From the NCBI GenBank assembly GCA_022793875.1, contig JAAWDR010000026.1, forward strand, positions 1-64,000: a stretch of 64,000 nt of DNA, given 5' to 3'. Each line of letters starts with the position of its first letter. Position 1 is the stretch's first letter. The notes beneath the pieces are model-generated. The model made no database searches. It saw only the letters and a list, made by a program, of their open reading frames with translations, and was not told the DNA's origin. Of this stretch, positions 5,249 through 62,710 are shown in pieces. Made by a program: the position numbers and the translations under genes. This DNA is from Clostridia bacterium. Lineage in GTDB: Bacteria; Bacillota; Clostridia; TANB77; CAG-508.

Positions 5249-8002
5249 ATGAAATTATTTAAAACATACAGTGAAAAAGAAGTAAAAAGAATAATGCCAA
5301 CAATAGAAAAAATCAACAGTCTAGAACCAGAAATGGAAAAACTAACAGATCATGAATTAAGAGAAAAAACAAATCATTTTAAAGAAGAATTAAAAAACGG
5401 AAAAACATTAGATGATATATTACCAGAGGCTTTTGCAGTTGTAAGAGAAGCATCAAAAAGAGCATTAGGAATGAGACACTTTGATGTACAATTAATAGGT
5501 GGAATTATATTACATCAAGGAAGAATAGCTGAAATGAAAACTGGTGAAGGAAAAACATTAGTTGCAACATTACCAGTATATTTGAATGCATTAGAAGGAA
5601 AAGGTGTACATGTAATTACAGTAAATGATTACTTAGCAAAAAGAGATAGTGAATGGATGGGAAAACTATATAAATTCTTAGGACTATCAGTTGGACTAGT
5701 AATAGCAGGAATGGATCCACAAGCAAAACAAAAAGCATATGGAGCAGATATAACATATGGAACAAATAATGAATTCGGATTTGACTATTTAAGAGATAAC
5801 ATGGTAATCTACAAAAATCAATTAGTACAAAGAGGACTACATTATGCAATAGTTGACGAAATCGACAGTATTTTAGTTGATGAAGCAAGAACACCACTTA
5901 TAATTTCAGGTAGAGCAAATGAATCATCAGATTTATATAAAAAAGCAAATGATTTTGTAAGAAAATTAGAAGCAAAAGTAATAGTTGAAGAAGATGTAAA
6001 AAACTTTGAACAAGCAGAAGATAATGAAAATTATGATTACATTATAGACTTAAAAGCAAAATCAGCATCATTAACACAAAAAGGAACTAAAAAAGCTGAG
6101 GAATTTTTCGGATTAGAAAACTTTAATGATTTAGAGAACTCAACATTAGTACACCATGTAAATCAAGCATTAAGAGCACATGGAGTAATGAAAAAAGACA
6201 TAGATTACATAGTAAAAGATGGAGAAGTTTTAATTGTTGATGAATTTACAGGACGTATTATGTATGGAAGAAGATACAATAATGGACTACATCAAGCAAT
6301 TGAAGCTAAAGAAAAAGTAAAAATAGCAGATGAATCTAAGACACTTGCTACAATAACATTCCAAAACTATTTCAGAATGTATGACAAATTATCTGGTATG
6401 ACAGGTACAGCCATGACAGAAGAAGCAGAATTTGAAGAAATTTATAATTTAGATGTTGTAGAAATACCAACTAATAAACCTATGGTAAGAAATGATAAAA
6501 ATGATGTTATTTACAAAAATGAAAAAGCAAAATTTAGAGCAGTAGTTGAAGAAGTAAAGGAAAGTCATGAAAAAGGTCAACCAGTTTTAATTGGTACAGT
6601 ATCAATAGAAAAATCTGAAAAATTAAGTAAATTATTAACAGAAGCTAGAATACCACATGAAGTATTAAATGCTAAATCACATGAAAAAGAAGCTATGATA
6701 GTTGCACAAGCAGGTAAGTTTGGAGCAGTTACAATAGCAACAAACATGGCAGGACGTGGTACTGATATTATGTTAGGTGGAAATAGTGAATACTTAGCAA
6801 AAGAAGAAATGAGAAAAAATAGAGTTCCAGCAAATCTAATAGAAGAATCAAATACTTATTATGAAACAGATGACCAAGACATACTAAGAGCAAGAGAACA
6901 ATTTAGTACATTAGTTAAAAAATATGATGAACAAATAAAAGATGAAAAGCAAAAAGTTATAGATGCAGGAGGATTAAAAATAATAGGTACAGAAAGACAT
7001 GAATCAAGAAGAATTGACAATCAGTTAAGAGGACGTTCAGGACGTCAAGGAGATGTTGGAGAATCAAGTTTCTTTATAGGGTTAGATGATGATTTAATGA
7101 AAATATTTGGTGGAGATGCTATAACAAGAGTTTACAACACATTAGGTGCAGATGAAGACATGCCAATAGCTTCAAAAATCATTTCAAAAGCAGTTGAAAA
7201 CGCTCAAAAGAAAGTTGAAGGAAGAAACTTTAGTACTCGTAAAAATGTACTAAAATATGATGATGTTATGAATGCACAAAGAGAGATTATCTATAAACAA
7301 AGAAGAGAAGTTTTAGATGGAGAAGATATACATAACAGCATATTAAATATGATAAGAAGCATAGCAGAAGAAATTGTTCTAACATTTATTGAAGGTGAAG
7401 AAGGAAAAAATATAAATGAAGAAAGCTTAAGTGCAGAAATAACAAATATATTTGGATTAGATATGGCTGACTTTATTAAAGAAAATAGAAATGATTCAAA
7501 TGCTATTATAGAAGAATTACAAGCACAAGCAATTGAAAAATATCAAGCTAAAGAAGATGAAATAACAAGTGAAAAATTAAGAGAACTTGAAAGAGTTGTA
7601 ATGCTTAAAATAGTTGATGAAAAATGGATGAACCATATTGATAGCATGGACGAACTAAAAAATGGTATCGGATTACGTGCTTATGGACAACAAGATCCTG
7701 TTGTAAAATACAGAATGGAAGGTATGGATATGTTTGAAGAAATGGTTTCAAACATAAAACTAGATGTTGTTAAAATTCTTATGAATATCAGAAAACAAAG
7801 TGAAAATGCTCAAAGACAAGAAACAGCAAAAATAACAGGTGCAGCTTTAGAGGCTATTAATAGTGTTGATGGAGGAAAGAAAATAAGTACTCCTGAATAT
7901 AGTCAAACTGTTGTAAATGAAGGGCCTAAAGTTGGTAGAAATGATTCTTGCCCTTGTGGAAGTGGGAAGAAATACAAAAATTGCTGTGGCAAAAATCAGT
8001 AA
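5249..8002 (+). CDS. secA: Preprotein translocase ATPase SecA
   Basis: SecA is the cytoplasmic motor that pushes unfolded preproteins through SecYEG. The 917-aa product is full length: Walker [15 protein letters not shown] near residue 100, DEAD-like [16 protein letters not shown], the preprotein cross-linking insert after it, [20 protein letters not shown] and the [11 protein letters not shown] helicase motif, then the scaffold/wing region and the C-terminal zinc ligand [19 protein letters not shown] precedes the ATG. In many Bacillota prfB follows secA; here an integrase follows instead, so the element probably sits between them. The conserved 3' end is a plausible attachment region. Confidence 0.98.
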
Positions 8003-8057
8003 TATCAACACTTTCAGCGATTGTGCAATAGCAAAAAAACATAAAAATATAGCAGAA

Positions 8058-8147
8058 TGTTCGCAATTTGTTCGCAATCATATAAAAATGTTCACAAAAA
8101 AACCTGAACCCCTTTTATATCAGTTAAAAGCTCCTTGCGAACAAATT
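8058..8147. repeat. Integrase arm-type repeats at left end of element
   Basis: Three copies of TGTTCGCAA lie here: 8058-8066, 8069-8077 and an inverted copy at 8135-8143. The second and third sit in a perfect 13-bp inverted repeat, AATTTGTTCGCAA (8065-8077) and TTGCGAACAAATT (8135-8147). Position between secA and the integrase start suggests integrase or excisionase arm sites next to attL. This is inferred; the right end is not in the window. Confidence 0.5.
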
Positions 8148-8159
8148 TTGAATATATTA

Positions 8160-8195
8160 AATGTCAGTATTTCGATCGGTACTGGCATTTTTATT
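8160..8195 (+). terminator. Terminator-like hairpin before integrase
   Basis: AATGTCAGTA / TACTGGCATT with G-U pairing, then a T-rich tail. It separates the secA transcript from the integrase gene. Confidence 0.6.
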
Positions 8196-8240
8196 GTTGA
8201 GTTTCATTTTACTAAAATAATTAGTAAAGGAGCGATAACA

Positions 8241-9509
8241 ATGGTTAATGTAAGAAAAAGGGGAAAGGTGTATCAATATCAATTTGAGATTGCACCAGTT
8301 GATGGAACAAGAAAATACGTCAACAAATCAGGTTTTAAAACCAAAGCAGAAGCAGAGAAGGCAGGCATAATAGCGTATAACGAATATACGCAAACAGGAC
8401 ACAGTTTTACGCCAAATACAATGTCATATTCAGATTATTTAGATTATTGGCTTAGAGAACATTGTCAGATTAATTTAAAGTATCATACGATACAGGCATA
8501 TTCAAACATTATAAAAAATCATATTAAACCAAGATTAGGATTTTATAGGTTATCACAAATAACGACATCTACACTTCAAGAATTTTTAAACAATTTATAT
8601 GTAGAAAAAGCTTTTTCAAAGAACTTTATGAAAAATATATTGAAGGTATTAAAAACATCATTTTCGTATGCAACAGATGTAGTAGGATTTGTAAAAGAAA
8701 ATCCTGCATTAAAAGTAAGAATCCCAAGATATGATGTTCCAGAAGAAGATCCTGCTCATATATTTAGTAAAGAAGAAATTGAAATAATTCTTGAAAGATT
8801 TCAAAATAACCACGCATTTTATTATGCAATACTAACAGCTTATCATACAGGATTAAGAGTTTCAGAAGTATTTGGACTAACCTGGAATGACATAGATTTA
8901 GAAAAGAAGACACTAACTGTCAATAAAAATATTTTAAAAAAGAACCAAAATGGAGCTACACACGGAAGACATATAAGTGGTAAAGCGACAACAGTATGGT
9001 ATTTTGGTACTTGTAAAACAAAAAGTAGTTATAGGACTATTGAAATTGGAGATACTTTAGTAAATGCTTTAAAGGAATTTAAAGCAGAACAAGAAAGAAA
9101 TAAAGAAGAATATGGCAATTTATATATGAAACATTATATGAAAGAAACATCTAATTATTATAATAATAAACCAGAGATAAAAATATTAAATGCTTATTCA
9201 GAATTAGATATTGCTTTACCAGAAGTTGATCTTGTATTTGTAAAACATAATGGAGTATTTGAAGGAACAGATACTTGTAAATATCCGTTTAAGGTAATTC
9301 ATTATGAATTAGGAATAAACTGTAGATTTCACGATTTTAGAGATACACACGCAACAAGATTAATTGAAGCAGGAGCAGATATAAAAGCTGTTTCAAAAAG
9401 ATTAGGTCATAGTACAATAAAAACAACTTATGAGATATATGTAAGAGTAACAGCTAAAATGAATAATGATGTAGTCGAAAAATTTGAGCAATTTGCTTTA
9501 TCATCATAA
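8241..9509 (+). CDS. Tyrosine recombinase / integrase of the conjugative element
   Basis: Catalyses site-specific integration and excision. From the ATG at 8241 (AAAGGAG upstream) the product is 422 aa, like Tn916-family integrases; the longer ORF from 7917 overlaps secA and is not credible. Domains: an N-terminal AP2-like arm-binding segment (VRKRGKVYQYQFEI), a core-binding SAM-like domain about residues 65-150, and a catalytic domain with Arg in HTGLRVSE, the HDFRDTHATR box, LGHSTIKTT and the nucleophile in TYEIYVR. All catalytic residues are visible, so it should be active. It lies 238 bp after secA. Confidence 0.93.
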   Translation: MVNVRKRGKVYQYQFEIAPVDGTRKYVNKSGFKTKAEAEKAGIIAYNEYTQTGHSFTPNTMSYSDYLDYWLREHCQINLKYHTIQAYSNIIKNHIKPRLGFYRLSQITTSTLQEFLNNLYVEKAFSKNFMKNILKVLKTSFSYATDVVGFVKENPALKVRIPRYDVPEEDPAHIFSKEEIEIILERFQNNHAFYYAILTAYHTGLRVSEVFGLTWNDIDLEKKTLTVNKNILKKNQNGATHGRHISGKATTVWYFGTCKTKSSYRTIEIGDTLVNALKEFKAEQERNKEEYGNLYMKHYMKETSNYYNNKPEIKILNAYSELDIALPEVDLVFVKHNGVFEGTDTCKYPFKVIHYELGINCRFHDFRDTHATRLIEAGADIKAVSKRLGHSTIKTTYEIYVRVTAKMNNDVVEKFEQFALSS

Positions 9510-13328: not shown

Positions 13329-13865
13329 ATGAATCAAACTAATAATGAATTTTTAGAGAAGATGAGAGAAGTAATTAAAGAAGAATTATCTAAAATAGAT
13401 GTTAGGAAGATGAGTTTTGATAGATGTTTAAATAATATAATTGTTATTTTAGAAAATTACAAAACTTTAAAACAATTCACAGCACAGGTTGAAAACGTAA
13501 AGTTTAGTAAAGAAGAAATAGACCAGGCAAAACAAAAAGAAATTGAAAAAATGATGAAAGAAGTTTTTTCAAATAAAGAGATTTATTTAGAATCCTTATA
13601 TAAAAAGCATTTACAAACTAGATTATTTTTGAACTTTTTAGAAGGTACGTTTGAGGAATACATAAAAGAAACTGAAATTTCTATGAAACCAAAAAGCGAA
13701 TTGAAAATTGCAATATTATCAGAAGTGTATATGGAAGGAAAAGAGATTAAACAATTTTTGTATGAACACAACTTGGGATATGGCAGAACATTTTATTATG
13801 CAAGGAATGAACTATATGAAGAACTAGCTGTAAGAGTATTTGGAATTTATGCACTAAAATTATAA
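13329..13865 (+). CDS. Probable ArpU/RinA-like phage-type transcription regulator
   Basis: 178 aa, AAGGAGG before the ATG. Mostly helical with a C-terminal segment (residues 115-178) that looks like a sigma-like helix-turn-helix: a spaced pair of helices, then GRTFYYARNELYEELAVRVF, which matches the shape of ArpU/RinA-type regulators of phage and ICE late genes. The match is by pattern only. It may control downstream element genes. Confidence 0.45.
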   Translation: MNQTNNEFLEKMREVIKEELSKIDVRKMSFDRCLNNIIVILENYKTLKQFTAQVENVKFSKEEIDQAKQKEIEKMMKEVFSNKEIYLESLYKKHLQTRLFLNFLEGTFEEYIKETEISMKPKSELKIAILSEVYMEGKEIKQFLYEHNLGYGRTFYYARNELYEELAVRVFGIYALKL

Positions 13866-16856: not shown

Positions 16857-16897
16857 AAATCCAGGAGAATCAAATAATTATTCTTCTGGATTTTTTA
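16857..16897. terminator. Bidirectional terminator after topB
   Basis: AAATCCAGGAGAAT / ATTCTTCTGGATTTTTT hairpin between convergent topB and the XRE gene; it overlaps the end of the latter. Confidence 0.75.
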
Positions 16898-17138
16898 ACC
16901 AATTTTTAGCTTCAACATTTTTAAATACTTTATCATCAAAAAAGTCTTTTAACTCTATATCAAAACCTTCACAAATATATAGCAAATTTTCTAATCTAAT
17001 TGTTTTGGTACTTCTTTTTAAGAAAACAGAAAGCGTGTTACGAGGTATACCTGTTAAAATACTTAAATCATATATCTTCATATTATTTTCTTTCATAAGT
17101 TGCTTTATTCTTACTACAATTGCGTCAGATAATTCCAT
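16878..17138 (-). CDS. Small XRE-type regulator (86 aa)
   Basis: GAGAGGAG fits the ATG at 17138 better than the track start at 17156. A helix-turn-helix occupies residues 15-70 (MKIYDLSILTGIPRNTLSVF), with a short acidic C-terminus. Divergent from the Spo0A-like gene with 145 bp between starts, so it probably regulates that promoter and its own. Confidence 0.8.
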   Translation of the reverse strand: MELSDAIVVRIKQLMKENNMKIYDLSILTGIPRNTLSVFLKRSTKTIRLENLLYICEGFDIELKDFFDDKVFKNVEAKNWLKNPEE

Positions 17139-17231
17139 CAATTTATCTCCTCTCATAGATACAATTATTTAAAATTATATCAAAAAAAGTTTATTTACCT
17201 GGTCAAGCGATTGAACAAAAAAGAAAAACTA

Positions 17232-17260
17232 TTTATTTTTTTGTGATATTATGTTATAAT
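17232..17260 (+). promoter_or_regulatory. Extended -10 promoter of the Spo0A-like gene
   Basis: TTTATT, 17 bp, TATAAT with an upstream TG (TGTTATAAT), followed by AGGAGGAG and the ATG at 17284. Confidence 0.65.
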
Positions 17261-17283
17261 ATATGGCTAGGAGGAGAAGTTTT

Positions 17284-18057
17284 ATGAAAAAGGATTTTTA
17301 TATTCTTCAAATAGAAGATGAAGAAGCATTAGCAAAACAAACAGAAGATATGATAAAAGAGAATTGTCCTTTTGTTACGAGAATGAAAACTGTTGGAACA
17401 GGAGAAAAAGGGATTGAAGAAATACAAAAAGAAATGCCAGATTTTATTATTTTGAATCAATATATGCCAGGAATTACAGGGTTAGAAATGCTTGAAAGAT
17501 GTCATAGTTTAGAACTAAAACTTCCCGAAGTGATCGTAATTACAGGTGGGTTAAAAACTAAAGAGGAAGAAGATAGATTTTACGAATTAGGAGTAAAGTA
17601 TATTTCTTCAAGACTACTTAATGATATTCAAAGAAGGTTTATTTTTTATTATATTGTGGAATGTTATAAAAGTTCAACTAAAATAGAAGAAGAAGATATG
17701 ACAAGAATAATATCGAAACAATTGAATGAAATAGTTGAAGATATAAGAAATATAAAACAGCCATATAATGTTGCATTATTAGGCTATCTTCTTAGGCACT
17801 TATTAATAAATAATATTGAATATACAACAGAGATAAAAGATGATTTATATAAAGAATTACAAGAAAAAAATAATTTAACAGAAGATATGATAAATGAAAT
17901 ACGAGAAAGAATAGAGGAAGTAATAGAAAAAAACTATATAAACGAAAATCCAATAAGAAAGTTAAATTATAGTATAAATAAAGATGAAATTCAGAAAGAA
18001 TTTTTTCATAAGTTAAAAGAAAATGTTTTAAAAGATATAATTGCTGAAAGTAACTAA
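17284..18057 (+). CDS. Spo0A-like response regulator with degenerate receiver
   Basis: 257 aa from the ATG after AGGAGGAG. Residues 4-115 have the receiver fold order (FYILQIEDEE, then DFIILNQYMPG, then VIVITGG), but the phospho-acceptor Asp is Asn in LNQYMPG and the usual Lys-Pro is missing, so it probably is not phosphorylated. Residues about 145-250 (GYLLRHLLINNIEYTTEIKD, later TEDMINEIRERIEEVIEK) align in pattern with the Spo0A DNA-binding domain. It likely acts as an element-encoded transcription factor. An XRE gene is divergent. A more degenerate relative is at 46336. Confidence 0.7.
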   Translation: MKKDFYILQIEDEEALAKQTEDMIKENCPFVTRMKTVGTGEKGIEEIQKEMPDFIILNQYMPGITGLEMLERCHSLELKLPEVIVITGGLKTKEEEDRFYELGVKYISSRLLNDIQRRFIFYYIVECYKSSTKIEEEDMTRIISKQLNEIVEDIRNIKQPYNVALLGYLLRHLLINNIEYTTEIKDDLYKELQEKNNLTEDMINEIRERIEEVIEKNYINENPIRKLNYSINKDEIQKEFFHKLKENVLKDIIAESN

Positions 18058-18181
18058 CTTAAAGTTGCTTATTTTTAGAACTGCAACTACTACAAATAAG
18101 AGTGGTTGCAATACAAACAGATTATTCAAAAAATCTCTTACTCATAATATAATTGAAAATATTGTGAGAGAGGGAATTGAT

Positions 18182-18532
18182 ATGAATTTTAAAAAGATAG
18201 GAAAGAAAATAGCTGATAAAAGAAGTTTATTAGGAATTACACAAGAAGAGTTAGCAGAAAAAGTTAATTCTTCAGCTAATTATATATCTAATATAGAAAC
18301 AGGAATCAAAAGTGGAAGTTTAATTTTCTATATTAAAGTGGCAAATGAATTAAAACTAAGTTTAGATTTCTTATTTAGTGAGGAACTTCCAAATTTAGAT
18401 ACAAATACAGCAACTAATAATGAAATTATAGAAATGATTGATATGCTAAGTAAAGATGAGAAGCAAATGGCAAATATATTTATTAAGAATATTGTTAAAG
18501 GTTTGATAGAATTAAGAAATGAAAATAAGTAA
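18182..18532 (+). CDS. XRE-family regulator (116 aa)
   Basis: GAGAGGGA precedes the ATG at 18182; the ORF track start at 18041 lies within the preceding gene. Canonical XRE helix-turn-helix in residues 5-65 (GITQEELAEKVNSSANYISN), then a short helical C-terminal dimerisation part. It is 125 bp after the Spo0A-like gene and directly before promoter module M1. Confidence 0.85.
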   Translation: MNFKKIGKKIADKRSLLGITQEELAEKVNSSANYISNIETGIKSGSLIFYIKVANELKLSLDFLFSEELPNLDTNTATNNEIIEMIDMLSKDEKQMANIFIKNIVKGLIELRNENK

Positions 18533-18656
18533 ACATAAATTTTTGCAAAAAGTTTGCAAAATACTGCAGTATACATTCAATAATTCAAGTGCTAAAATAT
18601 TAATATGAAAAATTATATTTAAAGAAAGCGAGAGAAATCTTGGCTTTCTTTTTTTG
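18531..18656 (+). promoter_or_regulatory. Regulon promoter module M1 with leader terminator
   Basis: Begins at the stop codon of the XRE gene. Boxes TTGCAAAA at 18543 and 18554 (11 bp apart), CTGCAGTATAC, then extended -10 TGCTAAAAT (TAAAAT 18593-18598). A hairpin AAAGAAAGC / GCTTTCTTT plus T-run (18621-18656) stands in the leader before the parB-like gene. Same architecture as modules M2-M5. Confidence 0.8.
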
Positions 18657-19916: not shown

Positions 19917-20070
19917 AAAATACACCGAAGTGTATCTCATCTTCATAACATCTGCATAAAAAATGATGTAGCAGAGGAGTAGAAAGCTTGCCTTTCTAAC
20001 TGTTGACAGGAAAGACACTTCTTTCCTTATCCTGCCCTTAATTTCTTTTTGGAAATTAAGGGAACACGAA
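19915..20070 (+). other. oriT-like module B upstream of the relaxosome genes
   Basis: Plus strand: hairpin AGGAAAGA-CACT-TCTTTCCT (20008-20027) directly followed by TATCCTG^C (20028-20035), an exact IncP/MOBP nic consensus, then an 11-bp hairpin CCCTTAATTTC / GAAATTAAGGG (20035-20062). Further left are TAGAAAG/CTTTCTA (19980-19998) and ATACACCGAAGTGTAT (19920-19935). It lies directly before the RHH and relaxase genes, the usual oriT place, and is the inverted counterpart of module A. Confidence 0.7.
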
Positions 20071-20093
20071 AGATAAAGCAAGGAGAGATAAAA

Positions 20094-20579
20094 TTGAATA
20101 GTAAAATTATTAAAAAGAAAGAGGAAAGCAGAACAGAAAAAGTTTATGCTGTAGTTCCTAAAACATTAAAAGACGCATTAAAAAAATATGTTGCTTCAAT
20201 AGCAAAAGAAGATAGAAAAGCGACTGAAAGTGAAATTATAAATAGAGCATTAGAAGAATACCTTGAAATTAAAGCTAATGAAAAAAGTGTAAGTAAATTA
20301 GAAAAAATGTTAGAAAAAATAATAGAAGAAAAGTTAAGTAGAAAGTTTGAAAGACATATTGCATTGTTAAGTAAGAGTGCAAAAGCAAGTTTTTCTTCAA
20401 TATTTTTACAAGCTTATGTATTATCATACATATTTAATAGTGAAGATGATCAGCAATTCATAAAGGATAAAATCAATCTTGCAAATAAATTGGGTTATCA
20501 AGCAATAAAATCTCCATATTTTGAAGATGACATCACTAGAATATTACCTAAGGACTTAAATTTTAAAAATTTAATATAA
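20094..20579 (+). CDS. Ribbon-helix-helix relaxosome accessory protein (MobC-like)
   Basis: Likely TTG start at 20094 with AAGGAG; the track start at 20049 lies in the oriT hairpin. 161 aa. Residues 15-60 (EKVYAVVPKTLKDALKKY, then ESEIINRALEEYLE) fit a ribbon-helix-helix DNA-binding domain; a coiled segment and a C-terminal helical domain follow. Position between oriT-like module B and the relaxase suggests that it binds oriT and helps the relaxase. Confidence 0.7.
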   Translation: MNSKIIKKKEESRTEKVYAVVPKTLKDALKKYVASIAKEDRKATESEIINRALEEYLEIKANEKSVSKLEKMLEKIIEEKLSRKFERHIALLSKSAKASFSSIFLQAYVLSYIFNSEDDQQFIKDKINLANKLGYQAIKSPYFEDDITRILPKDLNFKNLI

Positions 20580-21475: not shown

Positions 21476-23137
21476 ATGGATAAAGATAGATTTAGTGATG
21501 GAGTTTTCTTTAAATGGTTAAATCAAAAAGAAATATATAAAAAGTATGATAATAAAGGTAGGTCAATACGAATACAAGCGTATTTAGACGAGCTACACGA
21601 AGATTATATTGCTACTAGACCAGGTGCTGATTTTGGAGATGATTTACACGGACTTTTTGGATATATAAATGGTAATTCTAATGTGGAAAAAATGGATTTA
21701 AAGGAAATAAAAAAGTATGTAGTAAATAAAACTTTAAACAATATAGATATATATAAAACTGTAATTTCACTTAGTGAATCTGACGCAATTCAATATGGAT
21801 ATACAATTAAAACTGCTTGGAAAGATTTAATAATTGAACGAATAAATGAAATAGGGGAACAGTATGGAATAAAACCAGAAAACATTGAATGGACAGCTTC
21901 ATATCATTCTAAAAAAAATAATCCACATTGCCATTTGCTTTTTTGGAATAAAAATCAAAATTTAGAACTTCAAAAGAAACCATTTGTTAGATATAAAAAG
22001 ATTAGAAAAGCATTATCAAAAAGTATATTTAAACTAAAATTAAAAAGTTTATATGATATTAAAAATGTTTCTAAAAAACAAATAGCAAATTTAACAAATG
22101 AGGAATTGCAAAAATATAAAGATACACTAAAAGAATTTTATAAGAATCCAGATATGCAATTAAGAATTGTAGATACAGATAATGAAGAAAAAATAATAAT
22201 GGATAGCTTAAAAGATTTAGAATTAGAACATCATATTTATATTTGTGATATAGAAGAACCTAATAATTTTACAGAAATAAAGAAAATAGAGGTAGACAGA
22301 TTTGAATTTAAAAATTGTGGAGAACAATCAATACTTTATAGGCAAAATTCTTTTTTAGACACAGCAGAGTTTTTAGCAAATTTCTCAAATTTAAAAGTAT
22401 TTGATAGTAAAAGTGAGTTAGAAAATTATATAGCTCAAAAGAATAAAGAACATATAGACATAGAAAACAAACTTAAAGAAATAATGCCAGATATTTTTGG
22501 AATACCAATAATATCAAATAAATTCAAAGAGCAAAATTTCGATATTATTCTTAATAAAATAGCAGAGTTAAAAAGTATATCTAATAATTTTGAAAATGGT
22601 TATAAATACAAATATCAAATACCAGAAGTAAAGATGTATATAGATGAACTATCTAAACTTATTCTAAATACTTCAGAAGATTGCAAAAATGAATTTGATG
22701 AATACATACAAACATCAATAAATGTTTCAAGAATTATTGCTGATATTGATAATAAAAAGGACTATGAAAAAATAAGAAGAAGAGCAGAAAGCGAAATGTT
22801 TAACAAGATAGGAAATCAGATAATGCAATTTGTAAAAGAAGTTAGTTTTGAAGAATATATTAGAAGGAAACAAGAGTGGATAGATAATAGAATTAAATAT
22901 GCAGAAAAACAAGGAATAAAGAAGGCAAATGAAGATATATATTTAAAACGATTTGAAAGTCAAAATGCTAGAAAGATGATAAATGATATATTTCAAATGC
23001 TATCAGAAGAAAACATATCACTTAATGCTTATTACAATAGATTAAAGAATAGTAGCAATTTATCTAAGCAAGCTAAGAAAGAAATATACTTAAAAAATAG
23101 AATGAAAGGAAATATAGATTGGGGATTAGAAAGATGA
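21476..23137 (+). CDS. mobL: MobL-type conjugative relaxase
   Basis: Nicks oriT and pilots the transferred strand. 553 aa. The N-terminal 190 residues carry the family pattern, including HGLFGYINGN and the metal-binding His cluster in SYHSKKNNPHCHLLFW. The remainder is helical and coiled, with a basic C-terminus that may contact the coupling protein. The catalytic Tyr cannot be fixed by eye. Length suits MobL relaxases of Firmicutes elements. It follows the RHH gene and oriT-like module B, and precedes the secretion operon. Confidence 0.88.
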   Translation: MDKDRFSDGVFFKWLNQKEIYKKYDNKGRSIRIQAYLDELHEDYIATRPGADFGDDLHGLFGYINGNSNVEKMDLKEIKKYVVNKTLNNIDIYKTVISLSESDAIQYGYTIKTAWKDLIIERINEIGEQYGIKPENIEWTASYHSKKNNPHCHLLFWNKNQNLELQKKPFVRYKKIRKALSKSIFKLKLKSLYDIKNVSKKQIANLTNEELQKYKDTLKEFYKNPDMQLRIVDTDNEEKIIMDSLKDLELEHHIYICDIEEPNNFTEIKKIEVDRFEFKNCGEQSILYRQNSFLDTAEFLANFSNLKVFDSKSELENYIAQKNKEHIDIENKLKEIMPDIFGIPIISNKFKEQNFDIILNKIAELKSISNNFENGYKYKYQIPEVKMYIDELSKLILNTSEDCKNEFDEYIQTSINVSRIIADIDNKKDYEKIRRRAESEMFNKIGNQIMQFVKEVSFEEYIRRKQEWIDNRIKYAEKQGIKKANEDIYLKRFESQNARKMINDIFQMLSEENISLNAYYNRLKNSSNLSKQAKKEIYLKNRMKGNIDWGLER

Positions 23138-30606: not shown

Positions 30607-32456
30607 ATGGAAAGAGAGTTACAAATGAAAACAAAAGAAATAGAAACAATGCCTATTAATCAGGAGTTATTAGCACTTATAACTCCACAAGGTATTGAAT
30701 TAAAACATAATAAAGTGCAATTAGGAGAGTATCAACACAAATTGCAATATGTAAGTTCTTATCCATCTGCAGTAAATGTTGGTTGGTTATTGAATTTAAA
30801 AGATATACCAAATACTACTGTAAGCCTTGTAATTACACCGATAGAGAACGTACAAGAATATGTTGAGGGAGTGTCAAAAGGTTTAACAACAGATAAAAAT
30901 ATTTTCAATACCACAAGCAATGAAGCATTGAAAACACAAGCTGAATTTAAAATAAAATCTGCTGAAAAAATCATAAAAGATATAACTGTCGATAATATCC
31001 CATACGTTAATGTATCTTTTGTATCTAATACAATAGGAGAAACAGATAATAATTTTAATGAAAATTGTAGAACAGTAAGAAACAAAATAGCAGGAATGGG
31101 ATTAAAAGCTAGAGTACCTGCATTTATTCAAGACAAAGCATTAAGACAAAGTTCTCCTTATGATACATACTATGAAGATATTAGTAAAATATCTAATAAA
31201 ACAATGAGCCTGGAAGCTCTATTCTTAGGATTACCCTTTTCTGGAAGTGGGTTAGTAGATGTCGAAGGTTACTATTTAGGAACTGATGAAGATGGAAGAA
31301 TGATTGCTTTTTCCCCATTTTTTAAGGGAAATGATAGAACAAATTCAAACATTGTTATAGAAGGTTCTAGTGGTTCTGGTAAATCATTTCTTGCAAAAAA
31401 AATAATGCTTAATGAGTGGTTGAATGGAAGTAAAATTTTTGTAATAGATCCTGAATCTGAAATGCGTCCAATGTGTAAGTTATTAGGTGGGAAATGGATT
31501 GATTGTAGTGGTGGAACTGGAAATAATGTGGGTAGAATTAATCCTTTACAAGTAAATCCACTTCCTGAAACAACAACATTTGAAGATGATGAAAATGGAG
31601 AATACACTTCAAGTAAATCAGCCTTAGGATTACACTTAGATTTTCTAAGTACATTTTTTAAATTATATTATCCTGAAATAACATCTTTACAAATGAGTTT
31701 ACTAATGGAGATATTAGAAGAATTATATAAAACTTATGGTATTACTTATGATACAGATATTACAAATATGACTTCAAAAGAATTTCCAATTATGCAAGAC
31801 CTTTATAATTTGCTGATAGAAAAAGTTAAGGCAAATACAGAACATAAGAAAGAAATAGAAGAAATAAGAGCAGTAGTAAGAGAACTTTCAATTGGTCATC
31901 ACGGAGAAATATTTAATGGATATACTTCATTAGATTTAGATAGTAGTTTTGTATGCTTAGACGTTTACAGTTTGCAAGGAGCTTCTGAAAAAGTAAAAAG
32001 ATGTCAATATTTTAATATTTTAAGATATTGCCAGGATCAAGCATTTAGGAATCGTGAAGAAAGATGTTACGTTGTTTGTGATGAAGCCTATTTATTGGTA
32101 GATAGAAAAGTACCACAAACAATTGAATTTTTGAGAAATTTTTGTAAGCGTGCAAGAAAATACGAATGTGGACTTATGGTTATTACTCAAAGTTTAGTAG
32201 ACTTTTTAGCACCAGAAGTTCGTATGTATGGACAAGCTTTCCTAGATAATTCTACATACAAATTCTTTTTCGGAATTGATGGAAAAGATTTAGAAGAAGT
32301 TGTGAATTTATATAACTTAAATCAAGAAGAAAAGGCTATATTAAGCCAAAAAGATAAACGGACGTGGATTGTTTTTCATAGGTTCACGGACATACTTTAA
32401 TAAATGTAAAAGCATTAGAATGGGAAAAGGAATATTTAATTGGTGGTGGAAGATAA
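30607..32456 (+). CDS. virB4: VirB4-type conjugation ATPase, C-terminal part, frameshifted near its end
   Basis: Powers pilus/channel assembly and substrate transfer. Start at 30607 or, with a better GAGAG site, 30625. Walker A EGSSGSGKSFLAKK near residue 252, Walker B CYVVCDEAYLL, and a late VITQSLVDF motif. The track ends at 32400, but removing Cs at 32359 and 32387 gives KDKGRGLFFIGSGHTL and runs to TAA 32454-32456, touching the next ATG. Both Cs precede GGA. Length after repair is about 615 codons. Confidence 0.85.
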
Positions 32457-34727: not shown

Positions 34728-35022
34728 ACCAAAATCCATATATGATAAAGCAGTAGAAAAGAAAAATGAAAATATAGAAAAAGAGAGATTATATAAGAAT
34801 CTCAATTTAGATAAAGATAAAAATACTATTGTTTTTGAAAAGAAAACAAGTACAGGAATAAAAGTATTAAATTTTATTGCAGATTCAGTAGGAAAGATTA
34901 TTGAATTATTAATACTTTTAATAGTTTTAGCATTATTAACAATTGGAGCAACTGTTTTAATTAATCCAGAACTAAGGAATAATCTATTGGAAATACTAAA
35001 CAATATTAATTTCTTGACATAA
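34711..35022 (+). CDS. Small membrane protein ending the T4SS operon (103 aa)
   Basis: Overlaps the CpaE-like gene by 17 bp. Charged N-terminus (residues 1-60), then a membrane helix (LLILLIVLALLTIGATVLI), short tail. Its stop codon is the first base group of promoter module M2. Function unknown. Confidence 0.6.
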   Translation: MLRKNKPKSIYDKAVEKKNENIEKERLYKNLNLDKDKNTIVFEKKTSTGIKVLNFIADSVGKIIELLILLIVLALLTIGATVLINPELRNNLLEILNNINFLT

Positions 35023-35250
35023 CTTTTTGCAAAAAGTTTGCAAAATCCTGCAGTATACTTTAATGATTCAGGGTGTTAAAATATAGATACAAACTAAGAA
35101 ATAGATATACTTTTTAGATAAGTATGTAGAGTAGAGCTATATTTTAAAAATGAAATATTATTCTTGCTCCTTTCAATAATATTTGGTAATCCCCTTTTAT
35201 ATTTCTTGATCTGCATACTTATCTAAGGAGTATATAAAAATAAGGAGGGG
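35017..35250 (+). promoter_or_regulatory. Regulon promoter module M2 with a long structured leader
   Basis: Same boxes as M1 (TTTTTGCAAAAAGTTTGCAAA, CTGCAGTATAC, TGTTAAAAT with -10 at 35077-35082). The leader holds a 15/16-bp long-range stem (35114-35129 with 35211-35226) enclosing a perfect 10-bp hairpin AAATATTATT / AATAATATTT whose loop carries CTCCTTT. No T-run follows, so control at translation is more likely than termination. Confidence 0.7.
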
Positions 35251-45900: not shown

Positions 45901-46307
45901 TTTATAAAATAAAACATAATCAAATATTAACAGAAATAGAAAAAGAAGATTTAGAAAGAATTATGTTTGAAGAATTAGGAAATAATAAAGACTTTGTTGA
46001 AGCCTTTGGAGATTCAAATGTAGTACAAGTTGTTAGAAACTTAGTAGGATTAGACAGAGAAACAGCAAATCAAATATTCTCGAAATATATTAATGACAAT
46101 AGATTGAATAGTAAACAGATTCAATTTATAAAACAATTAAAAGAATATCTAATTGTAAATGGAATAATTAGTTTAGAAAAACTAAGAGAGCAACCATTCA
46201 GCACGATAGGTTCTATATCAGATATATTTAAAGATAATATAAATACTTTTAATGAAATCAAAGAAGACATAGAAATGATTAATGAAAACACTATAAAATT
46301 TGCTTAA
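42969..46307 (+). CDS. hsdR: Type I restriction subunit HsdR with N-terminal DUF4145
   Basis: 1112 aa. DUF4145 about residues 1-125, coiled coil 140-190, PD-(D/E)xK nuclease (VDYVLFG, LAVVEAKR) about 195-290, then SF2 motor: VVMATGTGKTRTA, DEAHRS, GLTATP, and motif VI MIGRGTRL. The C-terminal helical domain contacts HsdM. Cleaves unmodified DNA after translocation. GGGGAA site 10 bp after hsdS. Confidence 0.93.
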   Translation: MSNFDFLENNKLFRSFAKASIEAEKGLETNPVTCIMLSRKALELGVKWLYANDKLLIMPYQNNLSSLIHTITFKNIVNEDVRKGIDFIVKKGNFVIHTNSNISRDEAILVLKCLFSFMKWIYFNYDQNYEEIEFDINKLPEESNENLKLAEREKLEQELEEQTKKLEDTLKENEELRKQLTEERESKQKSKNFEIKDLSEFETRKQFIDLDLQISGWDFNENITEELEVQGMKNAEGIGYVDYVLFGKNGLPLAVVEAKRSSKNAHEGKQQASLYADCLEEKYGQRPVIYYTNGIEIYFWDNLDYPERRVQGFHTQDELQRLVNRRKAKQSLEHIFIDTKITDRPYQLEAIKRVCESFENKHRKALVVMATGTGKTRTAISLVDVLTGKGWVQNILFLADRTELIKQAKKNFVKLLPDVSCCNLLDSKDSPEDSRIVFSTYQTMINAIDNMRNKDGKRLFTPGHFDLIIIDEAHRSIYKKYQSIFEYFDGLLVGLTATPRSDVDRNTYSFFELENNVPTFAYEYQEAIDDGYLVDYHNIKTSTEFLERGIKYSQLKDEEKEEYENLFEEDENVPEEIDSSAINTWLFNKDTIKKILETLMEKGLKVEGGDKLGKTIIFARNHNHAEEIEKVFNSLYPHYKGDFARVIDNKVNYAETLIELFEDPKKLPQISISVDMLDTGIDVPEILNLVFFKPIKSKVKFWQMIGRGTRLCDNVFGEGVNKKEFYIFDCCNNFEFFEENAKGIETGATEGLTEKIFNSKLDLIVELQNLDYQSINQYVEYRKELIQEFLEAINELNDESFIVRSKKKYIDKYSKVENWNSISSIDKVEIKENLTPIFIVTDIDESAKRFDNLVYSLQVRKMKNKYCSMQINSIVSLIEELKELGTITQIKEKAELIQMTANSGYWERASFFDIENVRTQLRDLIKFIENPPRKIWNVDIEDTIIVDEEQKNINRDNFEDYKKKVKKFLEGNMDNLVIYKIKHNQILTEIEKEDLERIMFEELGNNKDFVEAFGDSNVVQVVRNLVGLDRETANQIFSKYINDNRLNSKQIQFIKQLKEYLIVNGIISLEKLREQPFSTIGSISDIFKDNINTFNEIKEDIEMINENTIKFA

Positions 46308-46335
46308 AATATTCTTTATTACACAGGAGAAGATA

Positions 46336-47106
46336 ATGAATAATAATGTAGTTAATATTGTAATTTATAGTAAGGAAACTGAAATTTTAAATGATTTAAA
46401 ATATGCAATTGAAAAGGAATGTACCTTTTTTAAACAAAATACACAAATAGTTAATGATATTAAAAAAGTTGATAAGATAGAAAATATAAATATTTTAATT
46501 GTAGTATTTAAAAATCAAAGAATGAATATAGTTAAGAACTTAAACAATAAAGCAGAAAAACTAATTATAGTAGACTTAAAAAAGGGCATTATCAAAGGAA
46601 ATCAAGAAAAAGTAGAAGAAATCACAAAAACAGAAGATATAAGGGCAATTGCTTTTTCTATTGTATTTAACTATTATGATGAATCAAGAAAGAAAAAATT
46701 TGAAGAAGTTCAAAAGCAAAATGATTCAAATTTAGATAAAGGATTAAATAAATTTGAAGGCAAGGAAAATTTTAAAAGAGAAATATCATTAAAAATAGAC
46801 AAAGCATTAACTATAAATGGCAGAAATTTTAAAGGATTTGAAGAATTAAAGACTATGATAATGTTTTGCATAATCAATGATATTTCTATAAAAGAAAATA
46901 GTAATGATTATAATTACATATATGACGCTACAGCAAAGATTCTTAATGAAACAAAAGGAAGAATGAAAGATAATATAACTACAGGATTAGCAGTAGTAAG
47001 ACATAGAAAATGCAAAAGTAAAATTGGCAATTGTATTATTGAAGTAAAAACTAAACCAATTGCAGAACAGATTATATTGATTGGAAAAGAAATTATAGAA
47101 ATGTAA
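46336..47106 (+). CDS. Second Spo0A-like regulator, highly degenerate
   Basis: 256 aa from ATG 46336 (CAGGAGAA). Residues 1-115 have a receiver-like alternation (VNIVIYSKETEI, NILIVVF) with no acid pocket or phospho-acceptor. Residues 165-255 (FKGFEELKTMIMFCIIND then KGRMKDNITTGLAVV) follow the helix order of the Spo0A effector domain, as in the gene at 17284. The resemblance is weaker here. It sits between hsdR and module M3, so may regulate the modules. Confidence 0.5.
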   Translation: MNNNVVNIVIYSKETEILNDLKYAIEKECTFFKQNTQIVNDIKKVDKIENINILIVVFKNQRMNIVKNLNNKAEKLIIVDLKKGIIKGNQEKVEEITKTEDIRAIAFSIVFNYYDESRKKKFEEVQKQNDSNLDKGLNKFEGKENFKREISLKIDKALTINGRNFKGFEELKTMIMFCIINDISIKENSNDYNYIYDATAKILNETKGRMKDNITTGLAVVRHRKCKSKIGNCIIEVKTKPIAEQIILIGKEIIEM

Positions 47107-47235
47107 ACATAAGATTTTGCAAAAACATTGCAAAATCTTGCATTATACTTTTTTAAATTGATGTGTTAAAATATGGACACTAGCTTATAATAAGTATATT
47201 TTATATAGTGCTACAAAAGAGGAGTAAATAGATGG
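47104..47235 (+). promoter_or_regulatory. Regulon promoter module M3
   Basis: Starts at the preceding stop codon (TAAACATAAG). TTTTGCAAAAACATTGCAAA twin boxes, TTGCATTATAC core, and extended -10 TGTTAAAAT at 47164-47172. This is the most diverged of the five copies; only a weak hairpin is seen in its leader. Confidence 0.7.
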
Positions 47236-48234: not shown

Positions 48235-48367
48235 ACATAATTTTTTGCAAAAAGTTTGCAAAATCCTGCAGTATACATTCAATTTTTCAAGTGCTAAAAT
48301 ATTAATATCAAAAATTATATGTGAATGAGAGAGCTAATTAGAGAAATTTAACTAGCTTTCTTTTTTG
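48232..48367 (+). promoter_or_regulatory. Regulon promoter module M4 with leader terminator
   Basis: TTTTTGCAAAAAGTTTGCAAA, CTGCAGTATAC and TGCTAAAAT (-10 at 48295-48300), nearly identical to M1. GAGAGCTA / TAGCTTTC hairpin plus T6 lies at 48329-48366, before the gene at 48386. Confidence 0.8.
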
Positions 48368-62569: not shown

Positions 62570-62710
62570 TTAACATAATTTTTTGCAAAAACATTGCAAA
62601 ATACTGCAGTATACATTCAATAATTCAAGTGCTAAAATATTAATATGAAAAATTGTAAATATGAAAGGAAGCTATCCAGAAAGAGCAGTCTGGATAACTT
62701 CTTTTTTTAT
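62570..62710 (+). promoter_or_regulatory. Regulon promoter module M5 with strong leader terminator
   Basis: TTTTTGCAAAAACATTGCAAA, CTGCAGTATAC, TGCTAAAAT (-10 at 62633-62638). GAAGCTATCCAGA / TCTGGATAACTTC hairpin (12 of 13 pairs) and T7 at 62668-62708, before the adhesin start. Confidence 0.85.

Follow-up and report, generated by a model that had tools for sequence, protein, structure and literature searches.

P0001, the product of an open reading frame at positions 17284 to 18057 of the window (the whole stretch of 64,000 nucleotides analysed here), is tentatively best explained as a functional pseudo-response regulator descended from Spo0A, which forms part of the switch of an integrative conjugative element (ICE) and would act through contacts with proteins, not with DNA. 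Since normal phosphorylation appears to be lost, and a Spo0A-like grip on DNA is probably lost as well, its most likely mode of action is contact with other proteins, rather than recognition of the repeated promoter boxes of the element.

Carrier element, gene and receiver domain

The carrier is an ICE of about 92 kb integrated in secA of an uncultured spore-former, and P0001 sits inside it, in agreement with its preliminary description as the product of a mobile element. The segment bounded by two 17 bp attachment repeats contains integrases and replication genes of phage type, together with genes for a topoisomerase, ParB, a relaxase (a weak match), a coupling protein and VirB4; the landmarks used here are:

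7917–9509 (+): tyrosine integrase open reading frame adjoining the 3′ end of secA
7993–8009 (+): left copy of the attachment repeat, AAATCAGTAATATCAAC, in the 3′ end of secA (the right copy occupies contig positions 100032–100048)
18654–19916 (+): ParB-like gene, the first of the transfer operon behind module M1 (see below)
21476–23137 (+): relaxase-like gene (weak Pfam match, E = 0.0035)
30607–32400 (+): VirB4/TraG-type ATPase

Near-identical pieces of the element (>99.9%) were also found in G073, a genome of another genus, for which shared-sample binning is possible because that bin is fragmented and incomplete. The host genome encodes SpoIVA and two intact Spo0As, and a link of P0001 to sporulation is therefore possible. 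Elsewhere on the element at least three copies of a repeat, AAGTACAGACAATTGATACAA, are present (at approximately 10500, 10632 and 23159), two of them in a non-coding stretch at 10.4–10.7 kb near the replication genes and one after the relaxase gene; these repeats are possible iterons or oriT-related sequences.

The gene itself and its start signals are as follows:

17250–17282 (+): extended −10 (TGTTATAAT) and Shine-Dalgarno sequence of P0001, both kept in the element of genome G276
17284–18057 (+): P0001, with a pseudo-receiver (aa 1–115), a linker helix and an acidic, degenerate Spo0A-type effector (aa ~136–257)
17455–17457 (+): codon AAT for Asn58, at the phospho-Asp position; Asn also in the orthologue P0002

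The open reading frame comprises 257 codons for amino acids and has a good ribosome site, AGGAGGAG lying a few bases 5′ of its ATG. A further in-frame ATG at 17263, 5′ of this start, shares bases with the Shine-Dalgarno sequence and does not lie in the reading frame of the G276 orthologue; the previously described start at 17284 is therefore correct. Residues 7–104 matched the Pfam receiver family (PF00072, E = 1.3e-10), and the predicted structure of this part has the alternating alpha/beta fold of receivers, including those of Spo0A (1qmp and 5wq0). The best NCBIfam match was Spo0A itself (TIGR02875, residues 22–231), at 35.5 bits and thus below the cut-off of 200. Individual residues were assigned by aligning P0001 with the two intact Spo0As of the host, divergent Spo0A-like proteins and phage Spo0As. 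An ILN-type motif with Asn in place of Asp had been described, and the sequence does read FIILNQYMPGITG, Asn58 occupying the phospho-acceptor position in the alignment. The conserved Lys, already described as missing, is replaced by Arg110, whilst the acidic pair is represented by Glu11-Asp12 and Thr87 is retained. The orthologue P0002 has the same Asn and Arg, with Glu-Glu as its acidic pair and an Ile where P0001 has Thr87; conservation of the Asn rests on this single comparison because only two orthologues are known. Judged by these residues, the conclusion holds that the P0001 receiver is a pseudo-receiver lacking what phosphotransfer needs and would not be canonically phosphorylatable. 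The loss of the canonical phosphorylation residues from both orthologues also supports, at the level of sequence, the proposal that the protein acts without phosphorylation.

P0002, which is 55% identical to P0001 and comes from a different genus (G276), was the one other full-length orthologue found among 390 genomes of the same family; its gene belongs to a sister element, where it is flanked by the topoisomerase/HTH and XRE genes that also flank P0001. A search extended to the order returned no orthologues beyond the family. A public metagenome-assembled genome carries an identical copy (L080), with flanks 99.4% identical, and this copy and one unrelated receiver were all that a search of genome contigs returned. 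Viral contigs yielded no relatives of P0001, phages no match to the protein, and plasmids only a single match to an unrelated receiver.

Between P0001 and P0002, dS (0.92) was similar to that of the neighbouring genes (0.38–0.86) and dN was higher (0.31 vs 0.03–0.12), giving a dN/dS of about 0.34 (0.05–0.29 for the neighbours), which indicates purifying selection on what is the fastest-evolving gene of the region; P0001 is therefore maintained yet fast-evolving. That it is a decaying remnant without function, as its rate, the loss of key residues and its very narrow distribution might suggest, is highly improbable, given that both orthologues are open over about 256 codons with this ratio at a dS of about 0.9 and that the promoter, the ribosome site and the C-terminal tail are conserved.

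The C-terminal domain and the neighbouring regulators

A profile built from P0001 and P0002 matched the Spo0As of the host over its full length and aligned with Spo0As colinearly over 199 columns (E = 3e-12). This match, carried chiefly by the receiver, supports the relationship to Spo0A that had been claimed. For the C-terminal domain alone, profile comparison with Spo0A was not significant (E 0.06–0.33), and P0001 has no match to Pfam Spo0A_C (PF08769). A custom HMM of Spo0A-type effectors scored P0001 at 15.6 bits, a value reached by 0 of 2000 shuffled sequences, and P0002 at 5.2 bits, reached by 21 of 2000. AlphaFold, run on the P0001 C-terminus with phage Spo0A rows and alone, placed the helices in a Spo0A-like order at a pLDDT of about 40–47, and Foldseek returned nothing significant for this low-confidence model. 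Of the described Spo0A order of effector helices, then, the order itself fits in the models, whereas their low confidence and the weak HMM match leave the fold unproven; the domain is probably, though unproven, Spo0A-derived.

The domain is also strongly acidic. It carries a net charge of −8 in P0001 and −9 in the orthologue, compared with +3 for the effector of host Spo0A and +4 to +7 for the effectors of other divergent Spo0A-like proteins of the family. The basic recognition helix of Spo0A, SRVERAIRHAIEVAW, is not conserved, P0001 having NLTEDMINEIRERIEEVIEKNY in its place; over this segment, where the alignment is weak, the basic residues of Spo0A are lost and the net charge is −4 in P0001 and −6 in the orthologue against +2 in Spo0A. 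Three residues of the GKPT loop of Spo0A are also absent from P0001. The most conserved part of P0001 and P0002 is the last 35 residues, which include several Lys. The acidic effector argues against DNA reading of the Spo0A kind, an argument that falls short of proof because of the weak alignment in the recognition-helix region. Acidic proteins can still bind DNA via local basic patches.

The position of P0001 is switch-like, in that the gene adjoins a divergent HTH gene and precedes both an XRE gene and the first box module. The signals around it are:

16878–17156 (−): P0006, divergent Cro/C1-type HTH regulator (HTH_26)
18048–18078 (+): hairpin resembling a terminator that spans the stop codon of P0001 (AGTAACT..AGTTGCTTATTTTT), kept in G276
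18125–18170 (+): promoter-like TTCAAA-17-TATAAT, overlapped by the inverted repeat CTCATAATAT-N8-ATATTGTGAG
18182–18532 (+): P0005, HTH regulator of the XRE type encoded 3′ of P0001 (88% identity to its G276 counterpart)

The hairpin at 18048–18078 was not flagged by a terminator scan. Upstream of P0006, inside the intergenic region that it shares with P0001, is a palindrome, GATAYAAT-N7/8-ATTATATC. The inverted repeat before P0005 is likely its autoregulatory operator and differs from the TTGCAAAA modules described below; P0005 and P0006 thus each seem to have a putative operator of their own, unlike the TTGCAAAA boxes. The stretch 18050–18190 before P0005 is also predicted to fold strongly (z = −5.6; −3.4 in the orthologue) into three hairpins; in the last of these the Shine-Dalgarno sequence is paired, and this hairpin also overlaps the promoter-like site.

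Phage and ICE switches usually pair a divergent HTH gene with an XRE gene beside it. This layout, the conserved putative operators at P0005 and P0006 and the retention of both flanking regulators in G276 would fit a P0001 that is an anti-repressor or co-factor of P0005 or P0006 and switches the element from quiescence to transfer and back, with no contact to DNA and no effect on sporulation. We consider this unlikely: P0001 and P0005 may not be co-expressed, because the terminator-like hairpin separates them and P0005 apparently has its own promoter, and a fast-evolving P0001 beside a slowly evolving P0005 is unlike a tight partner of the latter.

The box modules and their reader

The described TTGCAAAA twin boxes are real, with 35 occurrences against 10.8 expected, and five full modules lie in the window. 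Each comprises a 42 bp operator followed by an extended −10, and two further copies outside the window bring the element to seven:

18533–18598 (+): M1, operator ACATAAnnTTTTGCAAAAA-GTTTGCAAAAT-ACTGCAGTATAC with extended −10 TGCTAAAAT, upstream of the ParB/relaxase/T4SS operon
35017–35082 (+): M2, same operator as M1
47107–47172 (+): M3
48235–48300 (+): M4
62573–62638 (+): M5
contig positions 73359 and 98055: M6 and M7, outside the window

Across 27 aligned occurrences the consensus is ACATAAnnTTTTGCAAAAAcaTTGCAAAATncTGCAGTATAC, followed at a fixed distance by a TGnTAnAnT extended −10 in 27 of 27, and the TGCA cores of the operator are 11 and 10 bp apart. The search pattern did not include the columns of ACATAA, of the terminal AC and of the −10, and their near-invariance is independent support for that reason. 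Seven scattered copies of TGTCGAA, the core of the Spo0A box, were counted in the window (1.6 expected); no relation to the modules was seen.

The operator occurs in about 20 of the 390 family genomes. Outside the element family of P0001 it mostly precedes recombinase genes (L051–L079), either an HTH gene plus a tyrosine integrase or a serine recombinase of ~541 aa, and a search of viral contigs with the module found no relatives. It looks as though small integrative elements share the operator of the large conjugative element, which might then induce them in trans.

According to the preliminary description, P0001 could read the twin boxes. As a phosphorylation-independent, Spo0A-like master activator it would be well placed, M1 beginning 0.5 kb downstream, and boxes spaced 11 and 10 bp apart by the −35 region with a fixed extended −10 would accommodate tandem binding in the manner of Spo0A at class II promoters. 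P0001 is moreover present in both full-module elements whose P0001 region is readable (G000/L080 and G276); the contig of G084 is a run of N exactly at the expected position. This reading is nevertheless improbable. Besides the acidic effector and recognition segment, the operators are near-identical between G000 and G276, whilst P0001 is only 55% and P0005 88% identical. Among the family genomes, relatives of P0001 are found together with modules in one element family only, and proteins with a P0001-like C-terminus are encoded in genomes without modules (G032, G129 and G057); in G032 and G057 no convincing operator-like repeats were found near the P0001-like genes.

A sister element in G182 also speaks against P0001 as the reader. 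It has homologous relaxase and T4SS genes, and at the homologous place between a phrog_1558-type gene and ParB, in an element that is partly assembled, there is no P0001/P0005/P0006 cassette. A phased triple box of another sequence (TTTCAAAAATGTTTCAAAAAACATTCATTGAC) nonetheless occurs three times in the G182 element, with a similar −10 downstream of it:

L161:11102, L161:14017 and L160:17481: triple box TTTCAAAAATG-TTTCAAAAAACA-TTCATTGAC of G182

Those copies that could be placed precede genes homologous to genes of the P0001 element, so that regulation through such boxes apparently occurs in an element that has no P0001 at the homologous position.

Some other protein of the element most likely reads the modules, the leading candidate being:

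13329–13865 (+): phrog_1558 family protein, 178 aa, 94% identical in G276

In phages, genes for late activators often follow the replication genes. The phrog_1558 gene of the element, likewise located behind the replication genes, could encode an activator of that style, P0001 being unrelated to the modules. Its product is among the most conserved between the elements (80% identical in G084), and it has diverged (31–35%) in the elements of G182 and G032, the modules of G182 having diverged too. We regard this assignment as possible, if on the unlikely side, since no Pfam, NCBIfam or PDB family marks the protein as a regulator, phrog_1558 being without assigned function, and since other shared proteins, such as the ParB-like one at 20049–20579, fit equally well. 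P0005 was ranked low as a reader because its likely own operator is unlike the modules. A second degenerate Spo0A-like protein of the element, P0007, was set aside as a universal reader, not being seen in the G276 element.

Proposed function and comparison with known systems

Under the explanation that we tentatively prefer, a pseudo-response regulator working through protein contacts, P0001 would no longer read DNA autonomously and would be controlled by its abundance instead of by phosphorylation, and this abundance would depend on transcription that starts in the intergenic region common to it and the divergent P0006. It would bind a partner protein, which might be host Spo0A or its kinases or a regulator of the element such as the XRE protein P0005. 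If the partner were Spo0A or its kinases, binding could keep the donor cell from sporulating during transfer. In this more specific form, which we think rather unlikely, P0001 would be a decoy whose pseudo-receiver occupies the kinases of Spo0A or Spo0A itself, whose DNA-binding domain no longer binds and which keeps the donor vegetative, with P0007 as a further decoy. Were this so, conjugative elements of spore-formers would manipulate the sporulation decision with proteins made from Spo0A, complementing the effector-only Spo0As of phages, and the way in which mobile DNA negotiates with dormancy could be tested concretely.

P0007 lies directly upstream of M3:

46303–47106 (+): P0007, degenerate Spo0A-like protein, 267 aa

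Its receiver is unrecognisable, and its C-terminal effector remnant matches the Spo0A-effector HMM at 16–18 bits, second-best among the 1733 chunks of protein sequence taken from the window and from related loci, behind one known Spo0A-like protein. Among the genomes searched it was found only in G000 and G073. Degenerate Spo0A-like proteins recur in the bacterial family of P0001, and genome G032 encodes two more that are Spo0A-like or P0001-like (L045:11794–12453, − strand, and L045:16415–17050, + strand), one of them behind an AbrB-like gene.

The operator sharing resembles that of mobilizable islands of the SGI1 type, SGI1 answering AcaCD of IncC plasmids (PMC4605294), in that small integrative elements carry the operator of a conjugative element before their recombination genes. 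It differs from SGI1/AcaCD in being found in Firmicutes, with another operator and other proteins, and in that induction by the large element is here our inference. The shared 42 bp operator suggests that small integrative elements of the family eavesdrop on the transfer programme of the conjugative element, and we found no description of such an operator-sharing network in this bacterial family.

With Spo0A (TIGR02875; Response_reg + Spo0A_C), P0001 shares its length and its layout, a receiver followed by a C-terminal domain (predicted to be helical in P0001), but it falls below the family cut-off, lacks a Spo0A_C match, has lost the phospho-Asp and Lys and has an acidic effector. Gut phages carry effector-only Spo0A homologues (L114–L122; PMC10294663), which are likewise Spo0A-derived, located on a mobile element and free of phosphorelay control; in these the DNA-binding domain is conserved and the receiver dropped, whereas P0001 keeps a pseudo-receiver and has a diverged, acidic effector. 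Spo0A-type proteins, several of them effector-only, are encoded at 28 loci on viral contigs (L112–L139). Pseudo-receiver response regulators without the aspartate (PMC12632262, PMC4395418) have, like P0001, a receiver fold lacking the catalytic Asp and Lys, and replacement of the Lys by Arg is a common change among them (PMC12632262). A limited literature search found no described pseudo-receiver that has an output domain of the Spo0A type or is carried by a conjugative element, and no description of a doubly degenerate Spo0A relative on such an element. Pseudo-receivers and phage effector-only Spo0As are thus already known, and P0001 represents a new variant, a Spo0A relative degenerate in both domains and carried by a conjugative element.
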